Shown here: piece after piece, positions 2,398 through 62,016 of the stretch
Layout: every line of letters begins with the position of its first letter
Position numbering within the stretch: the stretch's first letter is position 1
Assembly (NCBI GenBank): GCA_903857795.1
Contig: CAIOGM010000038.1
Location: 1 to 64,000 of the forward strand
Direction of reading: 5' to 3'
Source: an uncultured Geobacter sp.
GTDB lineage: Bacteria > Desulfobacterota > Desulfuromonadia > Geobacterales > CAIOGM01
DNA length: 64,000 nucleotides
Position numbers and translations under genes: made by a program
Notes under the pieces: model-generated
Told to the model about the DNA's origin: nothing
Database searches by the model: none
Seen by the model: the letters and a program-made list of their open reading frames with translations, nothing else

Positions 2398-3918
2398 CTA
2401 TTCAGAAATTGACCTGCTGCCTGATAACGACGTGGTCGCAGCGACTTCTCCCCCCCCACCAAGCACCTTGTAGAGGGTCACCAGGTTGTTGAGACGGGCC
2501 AGGCGGGCGCCGATGAGCAGCTGTTGGGCATCGTAGGAGGAGCGCTGGAAGATGATCACGGCAAGATAGTTGTCGACCCCCCTTTCGTAGCGGGCCATGG
2601 AGAGGTTAAAGCTCGCGATGGTGGCATCGGTGAGGGACTGCTGAGCCGCCACCTGCACATCGATGGTCCCCCTCAGAGCCAGGGAGTCTGCCACCTCCCG
2701 GAAGGCGATCTGGATCGCCTTCTCGTACTGGGCCACGGCGATCTCCCGGTCCGCCTCCGCCACGGCCAGGTTGGCTTTGTTAAAGCCGGCGTCGAAGATG
2801 GGAAAGGAGATCTGCGGCGCAACCTTCCAGACGTAGGAGCCCGACGTAAAGAGTCCCCCCAGTTCGTTACTCCCCACACCGATGCTTGAGATCAGGGTAA
2901 TCCGCGGGAAGAACGCCGCTCGGGCCGCGCCGATGTTGGCATTGGCCCCCCTGAGGAGGTTTTCCGCCTGGAGGATGTCGGGGCGACGGAGCAAAACCTC
3001 CGAAGGAAGCCCGGGTGGCAGCTCCTTCAGGAGCGTAAGCGTACCGGTGAGCTTTGACGGAAGGAGGTCGATGGCAACCGTTGAACCGACAGCCAGGTTG
3101 AGGGCGTTCTCGTCCTGAGCCGTCAGGGTGGTGAAGACGGCCACATCTCTTCGCGCCGCATCCACCTGGATCTGAGCATTATAGAGATCCAGCAAGGATG
3201 CGATTCCCGCCTCATGGCGAAGCCGGACGATCCGGTAGTACTCCTGCTGACTCACCAGGGTATTGGCGGAAACCTGCAGTCGCTCCCGGTCGGCGGCCAG
3301 CGTCAGCCAGGCGGAAGAGACCTGGGATACCAGGGAGATCTGGACTGTCCGCCGGGCCTGTTCGGTGGCCAGATACTGCTCCAGAGCCTGGTCCTTGAGG
3401 CTCTGTACCCGTCCGAACAGATCCACCTCGTAGGAGCTGACGCCGAGGCCGACGTTGTATTGATGAATCTGCTGCGGTATACCCGAGCCGGAGAAATCTT
3501 CAGCCAAACGCTGGAATGTGCCGGACGCAGCTGCGTCCACCTTGGGAAAGAGATCGGAGCGGCGGATCTGAAACTGGGCCTGTGAGCGCCGGATGTTGAG
3601 GATGGCTACCCGCAGATCCCGGTTGTTGTCCAGCGCCAGACCGATCACTTTCCGCAACTGCGGATCCACAAAGAACTCCTGCCAGGGGATGTCGGCCACC
3701 GGCTTCTGCTCCGTGGGGATGGCTGTCGCCTGATATGACGGGCCGGCGGGCCAGGCAGCCGGCACCGGAGCGCCGGGGCGGCTGTAGGTGGGCGCCATGG
3801 TCGAGCAGCCGACTACCAGTGAAGTCACAATTCCAACACAGAGGAAGAGAGTCGCAGAGTAACGGCTTATTCTCCGTGTCTCCGTGTCCCCGTGGTTAAC
3901 TGCTTGTTCAAGGTTCAT
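2398..3918 (-). CDS. RND efflux outer membrane lipoprotein, NodT/OprM family
   Basis: [14 protein letters not shown] lipobox; [57 protein letters not shown]. True start may be internal. Confidence 0.93.
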
Positions 3919-35767: not shown

Positions 35768-38700
35768 TTATCGGACCTGGTTGTTGAACGTCTTGGTGAA
35801 CGTCGAGCTCCCCGTGAACGAGTAGCTGAATGTTGCAGACAGCTTGGTTGTCGACGCACAGCCTGAGAGGTTGATCTGCACTGTGCCGATGGCGGAGCTG
35901 CCCACGGCAATGGTTCCGGTTCCCACTGTTGCAGGGAGACCGGTTACGCTGATAGCCGGCACGCAGGCCGCTGAAGGGGTTATTGTCAGACCGGTGATCT
36001 TAACATCATTTGCAGCCACCGTGCTGTTGTTGGTCAAGGTAAAGCCCCAACTCCGGGTGTCATAAGCGCCACTTCTGGTGATGCCGGCGGGGGGGGTAAG
36101 AACTGCAACCGCGGCAGGAAGAGTGGTGGTGGCAACGACGTTGAGCGGTCCGGTCAGCGGTAATGTTACTACCGGATTGACGCTGCCGGCGGCCCCACCG
36201 CTCCAGACAGAGAAGATGCGCGGGGTAACGGGGAAAGCCTTAATCGACACCGCAGTTCCGGCATTGAACCAGTTAGTCGGCTGCGAGAGCCCTCCCACGG
36301 AGAGGGAGATCGAGGCCGAGCCCACCGGACTTGCCGCCGTGGTTATCTGGTACTGGGTGGCAAGCTCGGCGGTATACGTGGCTGCCGTGGCCGGAGCGGT
36401 AATCTCATGAGAGGCGGCGCCGGCATCCGACCAGTTGGTGAAGTTGTACCTGATTCCGGTTACACCGGGTTGGGTAGCGGCGACGGCGATGGTATGCTTC
36501 TCCCCTGTCGGCCAGCTGTAGTTCTGGGGCGAGATCAGCACATTACCGTCCACGAGGATGGTACGGCCAGCCGGGGTGGTGGTGATGACGATCTTCGGCT
36601 GGTAGTTGATGTTGCGCGTGGCGGCGGCATGGTTCCCTGCGGCATCGGTAGCGGTGACGACGATGGCGTAACTCTTGGCGATGGTGGAGGTGAGTGTCAG
36701 AGCCTGGCTGAAGGCGCCGGCCGTGACGGCAGGGGTATAGGTGACGCCGTCGCAGGTGATGGAGACGGTGACCGCGGTGAGATCGTCGGTGACCGTGCCG
36801 GTAAGGGTGAAGGCAAGGGCCGGATCATTCGTTGTAAAATCGGCGGGAGGATAGGTTATCGCCACGCCGGGCGCCGTGTGGTCATAGGTGACGGTACGAG
36901 AGATCGAGGAACTGTTCAGGGCCGGGTCTGTGGCGGTGACCTGGATCGTGTTGACCCCGTTGATCAGGGTAAGAGCCCGGCTGTAGTTCAACCCGTCCTT
37001 GGTCGCTGCTAATGGTGCCCCCCCATTGAGGGTCACGTCAACCAGGGCGGTGGCGTCGTCAATGGTCCCGGTGACGGTGAGCAGCGCGCTGCCAACGGCG
37101 CTGCCATCCGTGGGGGTGGTGACTGTCAGACCGGGGGCCGTCTGATCCAGGGTGATGGTCCGGATATCGGTGATGGTCTGATCGGCGTTATCCGTGGCCA
37201 CTGTGGTAAGGACGTTAGCCCCCGGAACCAGGGTATAGGCGGTGGAGAAGCTGTTACTAACCCCCACCAATGTCTGGCCCACACCGTTGATGGTGACTGA
37301 CTTGATGCCGTTGACGCTGGAGGCGCTGCCGCTGATGTTGAGGGTGGTCACCTTGGTGACGGAACCGTCGGCCAGGGTGGAGATGTCGAGGGTCGGTTTG
37401 GCGGGTGAGTAGTTCACCGTCACATTAACCGTGCCGCTCACCGTGTTGTAGTTGGCCGGTACATCCGGCGTGAAGGTAACATCCTGCGCTGCCGTGCCAT
37501 GGCCCGGCGTGGTGCTCGGGGTGGTGAAGGTAAATGTGCCGGCAACGGTGGCCGAACCGCCGGTGAGGATGGAATTAGCCAGAGTCTGGCCGCAGATGAT
37601 GGCCGAGGCCGTGGGCCAGCTGTTTACGGTTGGGGTCGCCTTGTTCACGGTCACGTTAACTGAACCGGGCACGGTGTTGTAGTTGGCAGAGGCAGTCGGC
37701 GTGAAGGTGACAGACTGCGAAGCCGTTCCTCCGCCCGGCACGGTTGTGGGGGTGGTGAAGGTGAATGTTCCGGCCACATCGGCCGAACCGCCGGTGAGGG
37801 TGGAAGCGGCCAGGGTCTGGCCGTAGGTGATTGTCGAAGCAGTAGGCCAGCTGGCCACGATCGGGGTGGCCTTGTTCACGGTCACGTTAACCGAACCGGT
37901 CACAGTATTGTAATTTGCAGTGACTGTCGGGGTGAAGGTGACACCCTGCAGAGCGGTACCGGCACCAGGCGCGGTGGACGGAGTGGTGAAGGCGAAGGTT
38001 CCCGCCACGGAGGCCGTACCGCCGGTGAGGGAGGATGAGGCCAGGGTCTGACCGTAGGTGATTGTCGAGGCAGTGGGCCAGACGGAGACCGTCGGAGTCG
38101 CCTTGCTCACGGTCACACTGGCCGACCCGACAACCGTGTTGTAGCCGCCTGATTGAGTCGGGGTGAAGGTGACACTCTGGGAGGCAGTTCCGACTCCGGG
38201 CGCGGTGGACGGAGTGGTGAAGGCGAAGCTTCCGGGCACGGTGGCCGTACCACCGTTAAGAACAGAATCCGCCAGCGTCTGGCCGTAGCTGATGCCCGAG
38301 GCCGTGGGCCAGGCGGTAACCGACGGGGTAATCTTGTTCACCGTGAACGACTGCGTCACCGTAACGGCAGGGTTGTAAGTGGAATTACCCGCTTGGTCGG
38401 CTTTGATGGTGCAGGTGCCGGCTTTGAGAAAGGTCAGGACGCCGGGTGAAGGTGTAGTAATAGTACAAACGTCGGTAGTCGTAGATGAGAATGTGGGGGT
38501 GAGGCCGGTTGCAGTTGTTGTAGCGGTAAGGGTTGGGGTCGTGCCGAAATTGTCGGGGCCGGCGTGAACGAAGGTGATCGTCTGATTTAACATCACCGTC
38601 CCGGTTACGGAGAAGAGCATGCTGTTTGCTGTAACCACCCCGTTTAGGAAGACACCGTTGAGTGTCGTCAAATTGAGAGTGGTTGATTGTGTTATAGAAT

Positions 38701-39229
38701 CCAGACCTGCAGAGGTGGTTATGTTCGAGTATCCCGCGGTATTGACCGGATCGTCAGCCCTATAGAATGCCCCTGTTCCGGTGGTCGTATTGGCGACAAG
38801 CACCCAGTAGCGGGTGCCGGAAGCAAGAGCAATCGCCGAAGCCGGCGTAAAGGTGACATTCGTCAGAGTCGCCGAAGAGGTGGAGGCAGTCCTCAGATCC
38901 GCGACAAAGGTGGTGGGAACCGTCGATGATGTGGTCGAACTGAACAGCCCCGCAACGTAAGTGAGAGAAGATCCCCCTGTGGTACCGCGCAGTGGCACGG
39001 TAACGGAAGTGATGGTGCCGGTCGCCCCGGCATCGATGTTAAAATAGGAGCCAAAAACTTTGCCTCCCGATCCCCCTAGAGCACTAATAGTGCTGGGAGT
39101 TGCTGATCCCAACGTATTAAAGATGACTGAGGGCGCAGCCGAGGCCGTGGTGGTGAGGGTAAGGGTGAGCATCGCCATCATGAGGAATAACAAGACGCCT
39201 TGCTTCATGAAGTCCTCCTTTGTTGTCAA
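35768..39229 (-). CDS. Large secreted repeat protein with tandem MBG/Ig-like repeats
   Basis: 1153 aa, signal peptide, four tandem 77-aa repeats (TPxVxxWPTASxIxYGQTL...NYNTVxGSVxVTVNK), then Ig-like segments (TAPGLTVTTPTDGSAV, TAPGVAITYPPADFTTND). Confidence 0.9.
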   Translation of the reverse strand: MTTKEDFMKQGVLLFLMMAMLTLTLTTTASAAPSVIFNTLGSATPSTISALGGSGGKVFGSYFNIDAGATGTITSVTVPLRGTTGGSSLTYVAGLFSSTTSSTVPTTFVADLRTASTSSATLTNVTFTPASAIALASGTRYWVLVANTTTGTGAFYRADDPVNTAGYSNITTSAGLDSITQSTTLNLTTLNGVFLNGVVTANSMLFSVTGTVMLNQTITFVHAGPDNFGTTPTLTATTTATGLTPTFSSTTTDVCTITTPSPGVLTFLKAGTCTIKADQAGNSTYNPAVTVTQSFTVNKITPSVTAWPTASGISYGQTLADSVLNGGTATVPGSFAFTTPSTAPGVGTASQSVTFTPTQSGGYNTVVGSASVTVSKATPTVSVWPTASTITYGQTLASSSLTGGTASVAGTFAFTTPSTAPGAGTALQGVTFTPTVTANYNTVTGSVNVTVNKATPIVASWPTASTITYGQTLAASTLTGGSADVAGTFTFTTPTTVPGGGTASQSVTFTPTASANYNTVPGSVNVTVNKATPTVNSWPTASAIICGQTLANSILTGGSATVAGTFTFTTPSTTPGHGTAAQDVTFTPDVPANYNTVSGTVNVTVNYSPAKPTLDISTLADGSVTKVTTLNISGSASSVNGIKSVTINGVGQTLVGVSNSFSTAYTLVPGANVLTTVATDNADQTITDIRTITLDQTAPGLTVTTPTDGSAVGSALLTVTGTIDDATALVDVTLNGGAPLAATKDGLNYSRALTLINGVNTIQVTATDPALNSSSISRTVTYDHTAPGVAITYPPADFTTNDPALAFTLTGTVTDDLTAVTVSITCDGVTYTPAVTAGAFSQALTLTSTIAKSYAIVVTATDAAGNHAAATRNINYQPKIVITTTPAGRTILVDGNVLISPQNYSWPTGEKHTIAVAATQPGVTGIRYNFTNWSDAGAASHEITAPATAATYTAELATQYQITTAASPVGSASISLSVGGLSQPTNWFNAGTAVSIKAFPVTPRIFSVWSGGAAGSVNPVVTLPLTGPLNVVATTTLPAAVAVLTPPAGITRSGAYDTRSWGFTLTNNSTVAANDVKITGLTITPSAACVPAISVTGLPATVGTGTIAVGSSAIGTVQINLSGCASTTKLSATFSYSFTGSSTFTKTFNNQVR
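37409..38332 (-). repeat. Four tandem 231-bp coding repeats
   Basis: 4 x 77 codons = 924 bp exactly; boundaries 38332, 38101, 37870, 37639, ending 37409. Confidence 0.92.
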
Positions 39230-46355: not shown

Positions 46356-47513
46356 GTGGCAATGAAACGGCTCCGTTCCGGCTACACCACCGGAGCCTGC
46401 GCCACGGCGGCGGCCAAGGGGGCGGCTCTCATGCTCCGGGAGCAGCGGCTTATCGGCGCCGTGGAGTTGACCCTTCCCCGGGGGGAGACGGCGCATTTTC
46501 CCCTCCAGGGGCAGGTTTTCTCCGCCACAGAAGCGGCCTGTTTCGTGGTGAAGGATGCGGGGGACGACCCGGACATCACCAACGGGGCAAAGATCCATGC
46601 ATCAGTATTTTTCGGACCAGCTGAAGGAGCAGTTCCGGTCACAATCTTCGGGGGGGTCGGCATCGGCAGGGTCACCAAACCGGGGCTGGCCGTCGCGCCG
46701 GGTGAGTGGGCCATCAATCCGGTCCCCCGCCGGATGATCACGGATGAACTCCTCACGATATTTCCGCCTCACGCTTCACGCCTCACATCTCACGCCTTGC
46801 CTATCATCCCTCACGTCACCATCTCCATCCCCAACGGCGAGCTCCTTGCCAAAAAGACCCTGAACGCCCGCCTCGGTATCATCGGCGGACTCTCCATCCT
46901 CGGCACCACCGGCATCGTCCGCCCCATCTCGGCCCAGGCCTGGACCGACACCATAGACGCGGCCATCGACGTGGCCCTGGCCTGCGGGTGCGAGGCGGTG
47001 GTCTTGTCCACCGGCAGAACAAGTGAACTCGTTGTGCAGCGCTTTCTCTCCTCCCCACTCATTCAGAATGCCCCCTTCCCCCTGTTGGGGGAGGGACAGG
47101 GCGGGTTGGAGCTGAGTGAGAATACCGCTTTCCCCGAAGAGGCCTTCGTCATGATGGGGGATCACGTGGGGCACGCCCTGCGAAGTTGTGCCCGCAAGGG
47201 GGTGACGCGGCTCATCCTGGCCGGGCAGTTCGCCAAGCTCCTCAAGATCGCCTGCGGTCACGAGCAGACCCACGTCTCCTCCTCGGAACTGGACCTGACC
47301 ACCCTCGCCGGCTGGCAGGAACTGGAAACTAGCGTCTTGCCACTCAAAACAGCGGTCACCGCCCGCGGCGTCCTGGAGGCGTCAGGCAACGATCAAGAGC
47401 TCATCTCCATCGTCTGTAAACGGGCTCAACGGTTCGCGTCGGCTCTCGCCCCCGGTGTTGAGCTGAAGGTTTTACTGGCAGGGTACGGCGGAGAAGTGCT
47501 ATATTTCGCCTGA
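46356..47513 (+). CDS. cbiD: Cobalt-precorrin-5B (C1)-methyltransferase
   Basis: LRSGYTTGACATAAAKGAALML; VKDAGDDPDITNGA; INPVPRRMI; LGIIGGLSILGTTGIVRPIS. Confidence 0.95.
   Translation: MAMKRLRSGYTTGACATAAAKGAALMLREQRLIGAVELTLPRGETAHFPLQGQVFSATEAACFVVKDAGDDPDITNGAKIHASVFFGPAEGAVPVTIFGGVGIGRVTKPGLAVAPGEWAINPVPRRMITDELLTIFPPHASRLTSHALPIIPHVTISIPNGELLAKKTLNARLGIIGGLSILGTTGIVRPISAQAWTDTIDAAIDVALACGCEAVVLSTGRTSELVVQRFLSSPLIQNAPFPLLGEGQGGLELSENTAFPEEAFVMMGDHVGHALRSCARKGVTRLILAGQFAKLLKIACGHEQTHVSSSELDLTTLAGWQELETSVLPLKTAVTARGVLEASGNDQELISIVCKRAQRFASALAPGVELKVLLAGYGGEVLYFA
46767..46794. repeat. Heptameric tandem repeat inside cbiD
   Basis: CCTCACG CTTCACG CCTCACA TCTCACG; out-of-tract CCTCACG copies at 46751 and 46809. 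Confidence 0.8.
47073..47095. repeat. GC-rich palindromic insert inside cbiD
   Basis: CCCTTCCCCCTGTTGGGGGAGGG, encoding part of NAPFPLLGEGQGGLEL. Confidence 0.6.
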
Positions 47514-59801: not shown

Positions 59802-60910
59802 TGAAGGATCTGGAAAAATACGACCTGATCATCCTCCTCATGGCAGTGGCGCTCACCTGCTTCGGCATCGTCATGGTCTACTCCACCTCGTCGGTCATGG
59901 CTGCGAAAAAGTATCATGACGGCTTCTATTTTCTCAAACGGCAGGGGATCTACGCCTGCATCGGCTTCGGCATCATGCTCTGCGCCATGAGGTTCGATTA
60001 CCAGATCCTGCGGAAATGGGCGGTCGTCCTCCTCCTGGGGTGCATCTTCCTTCTCCTGCTGGTCTTCATCCCCGGTGTGGGGGTCAAGGCCAAGGGGGCG
60101 GCCCGCTGGATCAAACTCCCCGGTTTCAACCTCCAGCCGTCGGAGCTGGCCAAGATCGCGCTCATCATCTACATGGCCTACTCCTTGGACAAGAAGAACG
60201 ATCAGGGGAAGATGAAGATCTTTCTGGCCGGGTTCTTCCCCTACATGGTGATCCTGGCCCTCATGCTCGGCATCCTGCTCAAACAGCACGATCTCGGCTC
60301 GGCGCTCACCCTCTTCTTCGTCGCCTTCATGATGCTCTTCATTGCGGGATCAAAATTGAAGTATATCGGCGGCTGCGGCGTCCTGGCCGCGCCGTTCGGC
60401 TGGTATTTCATCGTCTCCGAGCCGTACCGCTGGGAAAGGATCAAGGCGTATCTGGACCCGTGGCAGGATCCCACCGGCACCGGCTTTCAGATCATCCAGT
60501 CGTGGATCGCCGTCGGCACCGGCGGTCTCTTCGGCCAGGGGCTGGGGGAAAGCAAGCAGAAGCTCTTCTACCTCCCTGAAGCTCACACCGACTTCATCCT
60601 GGCGGTGACCGGTGAAGAGCTGGGGTTCGTGGGGATCACCATCATCGCCTCCATGTTCTTCCTGCTGGTGCTCCGGAGCATCCGGGTCGCCCTCTACGCC
60701 GAAGACAACTTCGGCCGGTTCCTCGCCTACGGCATCGCCGTTCTCCTGGGCACCGAGGCATTCTTCAACATGGCGGTGGTCACCGGCATGGTCCCCACCA
60801 AGGGGCTGGCGCTGCCGTTCATCAGTTATGGCGGCAGCTCACTCATCGTGACGCTGTTGGCCACCGGAATCCTCCTCAACGTCTCGTCACGGATGCGGGG
60901 GACCCCATGA
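59798..60910 (+). CDS. ftsW: Cell division protein / lipid II polymerase FtsW
   Basis: [55 protein letters not shown]. Confidence 0.97.
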
Positions 60911-62016
60911 GACTCCTCATCGCCGGCGGCGGCACCGGCGGCCACCTGTTTCCCGGCATCGCGGTGGCGGAAGAGTTCCTCTCCCGCGACCCCCGCAACG
61001 AGCTGCTCTTTATCGGCACCGAAGCCGGCATCGAGGCCCGGGCGCTCCCCGCGGCCGGCTACCGGCTGAAGAGCATCGCCACGGCGGGGATCAGGGGGAA
61101 GCGTGGGCTCGCCAAGGCCAAGAGCATTGCCCTTCTCCTCTACGCCTACGCCCAATCCCGCCGGATCCTGAAAGAGTTCCGGCCGGAGCTGGTTCTCGGA
61201 GTCGGCGGCTACGCTTCAGGTCCGGCGGTGCTGGCGGCCCGGGGGCTGCTCATCCCCTGTTTCATCCACGAGCAGAACGCCATCCCCGGGATGACCAACA
61301 AGATCCTCGCGCGAGTGGCGGCAAAAGTCTTCATCTCACTGGAAGAGTCGCGCCCCTTCTTCCCCCGGGAGCGGACGCTCCTCACCGGCAATCCCCTGCG
61401 GCGGCAGATCCTGGAGTCCATTATCCCCGATGAAACGTCTGAGCACACCTCACACCTCACGCCTCACGATTTTCACCTCCTCATCTTCGGCGGCAGCCGC
61501 GGCGCCCATGCCGTCAATCAGGCCATGGTGGCGGCGCTCCCGTACCTTGAACCCCTCGGTACCCGACTCACCGTGACCCACCAGACCGGCACCGACGACC
61601 TGGAGCTGGTCAGAGAAGGATATCGTGCGGCAGGGGTTGCCGCTGAGGTGATCCCCTTCATCGACAACATGGCGGCCGAATACGGAAAGGCTGACCTCAT
61701 CGTCTGCCGCGCCGGGGCCACCACCATCGCGGAGGTGACCGCCACCGGCAAGGGGTGCATCTTCATCCCCTTCCCCCATGCCGTGGATGACCATCAGCGC
61801 CGCAACGCAGAAGCGCTCCTGAAAGAACGGGCCGGATTCATGCTCCTGGAGCGGGAACTTTCGGGGGAGAGCCTCGGCCGCCTCATCCTCGACCTGATGA
61901 ACGAGCCTCGGCGGATCGCCGAAGCGGCCCGCAACGCCCGAAGCCTCTGCCGGCTGGACGCGGCGCGGCTCATAGTGGATGAGATGCTCAGGAAAGCAGG
62001 TCAGGAACAAGGTTGA
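60907..62016 (+). CDS. murG: UDP-GlcNAc--MurNAc-pentapeptide-lipid GlcNAc transferase
   Basis: [72 protein letters not shown]. Confidence 0.97.
   Translation: MRLLIAGGGTGGHLFPGIAVAEEFLSRDPRNELLFIGTEAGIEARALPAAGYRLKSIATAGIRGKRGLAKAKSIALLLYAYAQSRRILKEFRPELVLGVGGYASGPAVLAARGLLIPCFIHEQNAIPGMTNKILARVAAKVFISLEESRPFFPRERTLLTGNPLRRQILESIIPDETSEHTSHLTPHDFHLLIFGGSRGAHAVNQAMVAALPYLEPLGTRLTVTHQTGTDDLELVREGYRAAGVAAEVIPFIDNMAAEYGKADLIVCRAGATTIAEVTATGKGCIFIPFPHAVDDHQRRNAEALLKERAGFMLLERELSGESLGRLILDLMNEPRRIAEAARNARSLCRLDAARLIVDEMLRKAGQEQG
61448..61468. repeat. Heptameric tandem repeat inside murG
   Basis: CCTCACA CCTCACG CCTCACG, same heptamer as in cbiD, coding SEHTSHLTPHDF. Confidence 0.8.

Follow-up and report, generated by a model that had tools for sequence, protein, structure and literature searches.

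The heptamer tract within cbiD of an uncultured Geobacter species is best read, with a probability of about 0.7, as belonging to a family of degenerate heptanucleotide arrays, spread through the genome, that would arise and turn over through replication-linked expansion or template switching. Arrays of the same period, written in words that differ from species to species, occur in the same loops of this conserved enzyme in related genomes. The features at issue in the window (the whole stretch of DNA analysed, 64,000 nt) are these:

46356..47513, plus strand: cbiD, cobalt-precorrin-5B C1-methyltransferase, 385 aa, the host gene of the tract (open reading frame; Pfam CbiD PF01888, E 1.3e-83)
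46765..46797, plus strand: period-7 array occupying CbiD loop A (sequence, Tandem Repeats Finder, lag-7 score 17 of 21)
46767-46794, plus strand: core of that array, in frame in cbiD and reading PPHASRLTSHA, with the units CCTCACG (46767-46773), CTTCACG (46774-46780), CCTCACA (46781-46787) and TCTCACG (46788-46794)
46751..46757, plus strand: isolated CCTCACG, 16 nt upstream of the core
46809..46815, plus strand: isolated CCTCACG, 42 nt from the start of the core
47060..47135, plus strand: second repeat-derived segment of CbiD, in loop B, comprising palindrome-like CCCCCTTCCCCCTGTTGGGGGAGGGACAGGGCGGG and its surroundings and reading NAPFPLLGEGQGGLELSENTA
60907..62016, plus strand: murG, 369 aa, the second conserved enzyme of the window with a heptamer linker
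61439..61474, plus strand: period-7 array CACACCT CACACCT CACGCCT CACG in the MurG interdomain linker (61444-61467 by Tandem Repeats Finder)

Every heptamer that an earlier note had claimed for cbiD is present in the sequence where it was said to be, and the copy at 46809 is indeed in phase with the array; the other outlying copy, at 46751, is out of phase. Tandem Repeats Finder independently delimits the array at 46765-46797, with period 7 and a score of 45. The description of the tract as a repeat element stands as regards its tandem arrangement, which exceeds chance, the lag-7 score of 17 of 21 being matched by none of 3000 codon-order shuffles and by 36 of 3000 synonymous shuffles (1.2%). 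It does not extend to the heptamer as a single word, since CCTCACG occurs in the window about as often as expected (14 matches against 12.95) and the degenerate form YTCACRY is found less often than expected (27 against 47.8). What is non-random in the tract is the in-phase tandem arrangement, and not an over-representation of a single heptamer. That some synonymous shuffles attain the score while specifying the same protein is what might be anticipated if coding arrays were a by-product of protein-level selection for proline-, serine- and histidine-rich linkers combined with codon bias, and the encoded segments are linker-like. However, a repeat period of 7 nt does not correspond to codons, identical words are found outside genes, and a given loop holds different words encoding different amino acids, which together make this account highly improbable.

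In an alignment of homologs, the tract lies in a loop flanked by INPVPRRMI and SIPNGE. This linker comprises 30 residues in the host genome (G000, a Geobacterales relative of 4.05 Mb in 179 contigs), 42 in G022 and 19-26 in the other relatives measured, so that the expectation of a shorter linker in homologs is borne out with the exception of G022. The difference between G000 and its same-genus ortholog in G003 is exactly 7 residues, or 21 nt, the length of the three heptamers that had been proposed to preserve the reading frame. As 7 is not divisible by 3, frame is kept only if the net length change of an array is a multiple of 3; the in-frame changes that can be cleanly measured are of 21 nt (G000) and 63 nt (G022). 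A further property of YTCACNY arrays is that their sense strand is free of stops in all frames, and the antisense strand contains at least one stop in every frame. The nearest solved structure to the window CbiD is 1sr8 (E 2.4e-11). In the AlphaFold model (mean pLDDT 82.7) the tract falls between a helix and a strand, where confidence is lower, and the loop B segment has pLDDT below 50 over much of its length; both loops are low-confidence regions of the predicted structure. The G000 tract adds seven residues to this helix-strand loop, most likely has no function of its own and is presumably neutral. The longer linker, along with the genome-wide occurrence of period-7 arrays, supports the proposal that a short tandem repeat has been tolerated within a conserved enzyme.

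Loop B of the same protein presents a separate observation, in that translation continues in frame across the palindrome-like CCCCCTTCCCCCTGTTGGGGGAGGGACAGGGCGGG (window 47060-47135); relaxed copies of it number 7 more in the genome, with 0 among controls. Rickettsia palindromic elements are likewise repeat DNA in frame in conserved proteins, each a defined palindrome over 100 bp; they are comparable to the loop B palindrome and are not heptamer arrays. Elsewhere in the window, the minus strand at 35768-39229 encodes a 1153-aa secreted-type repeat protein with a 231-bp tandem repeat of 3.9 copies (37412-38312), and three tandem 8-nt units TCTCCGTG at 3871-3894 resemble the class 2 octamer elements of G. 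metallireducens (PMC2700814).

The genome-wide search for heptamer arrays revealed strong enrichment. In 325 kb sampled from G000, 23 period-7 arrays were found against approximately 0 expected under a third-order Markov null, and none at periods 4, 5, 8, 11 or 13-15; some of the sampled contigs were picked for having matches, which makes 23 per 325 kb an upper estimate, but this choice does not explain the contrast between periods, although it biases the density upward. Across the whole genome, a three-unit pattern gave 11 matches against 1 control match and a four-unit YTCACNY pattern gave 14 against 0 controls. The latter pattern is present in 26 of 58 related genomes. Matches to the reversed-pattern control, zero in G000, are many in some relatives, where they likely represent long near-perfect arrays that fit the degenerate pattern both ways. 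Array words in G000 include YTCACNY, GGTTCNN/GAACCYT and CCAGTCA, and the majority of arrays are intergenic or placed at the ends of genes, with frequent inverted pairs. The cbiD tract shares the properties of bacterial heptanucleotide simple sequence repeats, namely tandem 7-nt units beyond chance, many dispersed and mostly intergenic sites, and unit numbers that differ among close relatives (C1:306.5k; G022 cbiD). By contrast with REP and other palindromic mobile elements, which have a fixed palindrome and defined ends, the tract folds to nothing and array lengths vary. The fragmentation of G000 into 179 contigs might suggest that arrays are an assembly or sequencing artefact of a draft genome; this is hardly credible, as arrays of the same kind are found in G007, G012 and G032, each of them a single contig, and in dozens of other genomes assembled independently, and the reading frame of cbiD is intact.

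Comparison across genomes identifies CbiD as a hotspot. In a uniform scan of 35 Geobacterales genomes, the 39 kb of cbiD sequence held 20 arrays and the 96 kb of flanking DNA held 3, and 13 of the 35 carry at least one period-7 array in cbiD. With the G000 array left out, the ratio of rates is 16 (p 2e-8), and in a second set of named genomes with duplicates removed it is 8 (p 4e-4), both p values assuming an independence of arrays that is only partly true. The arrays fall in three loops: A, which is the linker containing the tract, B (approximately residues 224-260) and C (approximately residues 304-320). Their words include CCTCACG, GGTCCCC, CCCTTCA, TTCAACC, TTCAACA, CCCTTGC, CCCCGTT, GGGATCC, GGGATCG, GGGACCG and CTCACTC, among others. 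On the preferred reading, the three loops have been colonized repeatedly and independently. The phenomenon is accordingly wider in word and lineage than first conceived in the earlier note: the repeat is real, but relatives have other heptamers in the same loop. G013 and G024 (L016, L021) each have heptamer-like arrays in loop C, in differing words and with net length unchanged, which indicates that replacement happens as well as insertion. Outside the Geobacterales, three loci from Nitrospirota metagenome-assembled genomes (L134, L145, L160) display abundant period-7 arrays of many words in cbiD and its flanks, with up to six within one cbiD gene. GGTCCCC arrays were also noted in the apparent linker of a putative cobyric acid synthase (CbiP, a gene judged by eye) at L194:12802-12846 and at syntenic sites in G015 and G004.

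A comparable pattern is seen in murG, where recurrence of the heptamer had also been claimed. Tandem Repeats Finder confirms a period-7 array there, situated between the two MurG domains, PF03033 (aa 4-143) and PF04101 (aa 191-344). Among 30 genomes, murG contains 3 period-7 arrays, all at this interdomain linker and in three different words; a search of gatB in 30 genomes found 0. As a separate matter, the MurG interdomain linker in several relatives (L211, L218, L226, L233) is coded by a palindromic repeat, CCCCCCTTT..AAAGGGGGG, which in the G013 linker occurs together with a heptamer array.

Each genome would appear to amplify a few seven-base words of its own. Among 58 genomes, GGGATCC arrays are confined to G007, at three places of which one is in cbiD; G003 and G015 are rich in GGGACCG arrays, with 20 matches in G003, its cbiD included; and TTCAACN arrays, present in 14 genomes, are common in G046, whose cbiD carries them. 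A further case concerns congeners in which the word ATTCACN yields 26 (G022), 1 (G050) and 0 (G054) matches. G022 and G050 are close, their cbiD genes being 91% identical and several syntenic stretches 93-97%. Loop A of the G022 cbiD contains a clean 63-nt insertion of nine ATTCACG-type heptamers that G050 and G054 lack, and the comparison shows this to be a recent in-frame gain. Five other G022 sites were compared with G050. One exhibits a gain of approximately two heptamers (C1:306.5k). At another, C26:124.8k (L288 ~1370-1430 versus L298), arrays occur in both species and the spacer between inverted arrays appears inverted, as template switching would give. At the remaining three, arrays stand where G050 has unrelated sequence, whole intergenic stretches having been replaced and not extended.

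These comparisons bear on whether the arrays could instead be functional cis elements under selection, such as sites for nucleoid or RNA-binding proteins or transcription-end hairpins, with intragenic copies belonging to the same network. The majority of arrays do adjoin stop codons or fall between genes, and regulatory roles have been proposed for the heptamer and octamer elements of G. metallireducens (PMC2700814). In the trio G007, G015 and G004, moreover, one gene boundary retains an inverted heptamer pair that forms a long hairpin in all three species despite a different word in each. Yet the very difference of words at the same site in related species speaks against such a role, hairpins are an automatic consequence of inverted arrays, only one of two sister species carries arrays at many of the sites, and the cbiD tract itself does not fold; we consider a cis-acting role for the family unlikely, though a regulatory one is conceivable for arrays at gene ends. 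More improbable still is a dedicated mobile system copying arrays between sites, in the manner of RAYT transposases moving REP sequences. The way in which a single word has multiplied at numerous unlinked sites within one species, and the frequency of inverted pairs, would suit such a system, but neither fixed element boundaries nor target duplications were seen, and the number and order of units vary among arrays.

The reading we prefer, a family of arrays generated and turned over during replication, would operate as follows. Slippage, or a related replication-linked expansion or template-switch process, would generate the arrays, which would build up in unconstrained sequence, chiefly at gene ends and in intergenic DNA. 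Within genes their survival would be restricted to interdomain linkers and flexible loops, where the repeat strand is free of stops and the net length keeps the frame (three or nine heptamers, for example). The process would be ongoing, with protein loops a minor and filtered destination. Slippage by itself is evidently insufficient. It should yield identical units, but those of the cbiD tract differ from each other by transitions, an imperfection that also makes frequent slippage, of the kind relevant to phase variation, unlikely; the sister-species sites that have been replaced and not extended likewise need something beyond slippage, and slippage alone does not account for the strict preference for seven. 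One can conceive of an enzyme-driven process in Geobacterales and some Nitrospirota that writes species-specific seven-base words into unconstrained DNA, loops of conserved enzymes included. We regard this as a doubtful, if possible, extension; were it true, protein linkers would be continually rewritten from the private repeat lexicon of each genome. Why the unit is seven, and by what route heptamer repeats spread, are questions made testable by the congeners with 26, 1 and 0 matches and by their empty sites. From a protein-centric perspective, CbiD offers a natural catalogue of in-frame insertions tolerated by a conserved enzyme, and a case of non-triplet repeats recurring in coding DNA.

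Heptamer repeats are already known from Geobacter, Xanthomonas and cyanobacteria. According to Mrazek et al. 2007, as represented in PMC4679880, heptamers are the commonest long repeat unit in most genomes, polymerase contact has been proposed as the cause of their prevalence, and units in multiples of three are likeliest in genes, whereas here non-triplet units recur in genes. Literature searches, which covered few subscription papers, yielded no account of species-private words repeatedly colonizing the same enzyme loops, and gave nothing specific on heptamer repeats of Geobacter or Nitrospira beyond PMC2700814, PMC4692102 and PMC4679880. The G-rich heptamers of Xanthomonas and Nostoc (GGGANTN; PMC4692102) resemble the present arrays in their degenerate units, approximately four copies, chiefly intergenic location and inverted pairs, and in differing in length and sequence among close species; they are unlike them in forming G-quadruplexes, and are not known to have a protein-loop hotspot. 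The TAACTGA repeats of Beggiatoaceae (PMC4679880) are similarly sporadic heptamer arrays with rare intragenic copies, one of them at the end of MurG, but they consist of one fixed word with stops in all forward-strand frames and are located chiefly just upstream of start codons. A close parallel lies within the same bacterial group, in the heptanucleotide element of G. metallireducens (GGGACCG x4; PMC2700814). Its 49 copies are intragenic as well as intergenic, like the G000 arrays, with which it also shares a period of 7 and approximately four units. Its word is that of the G003 cbiD; G000 itself has no GGGACCG array, its word in the tract being YTCACRY. Whereas that element was one word in one genome and was read as regulatory (PMC2700814), the arrays described here comprise many species-private words that occupy the same protein loops.
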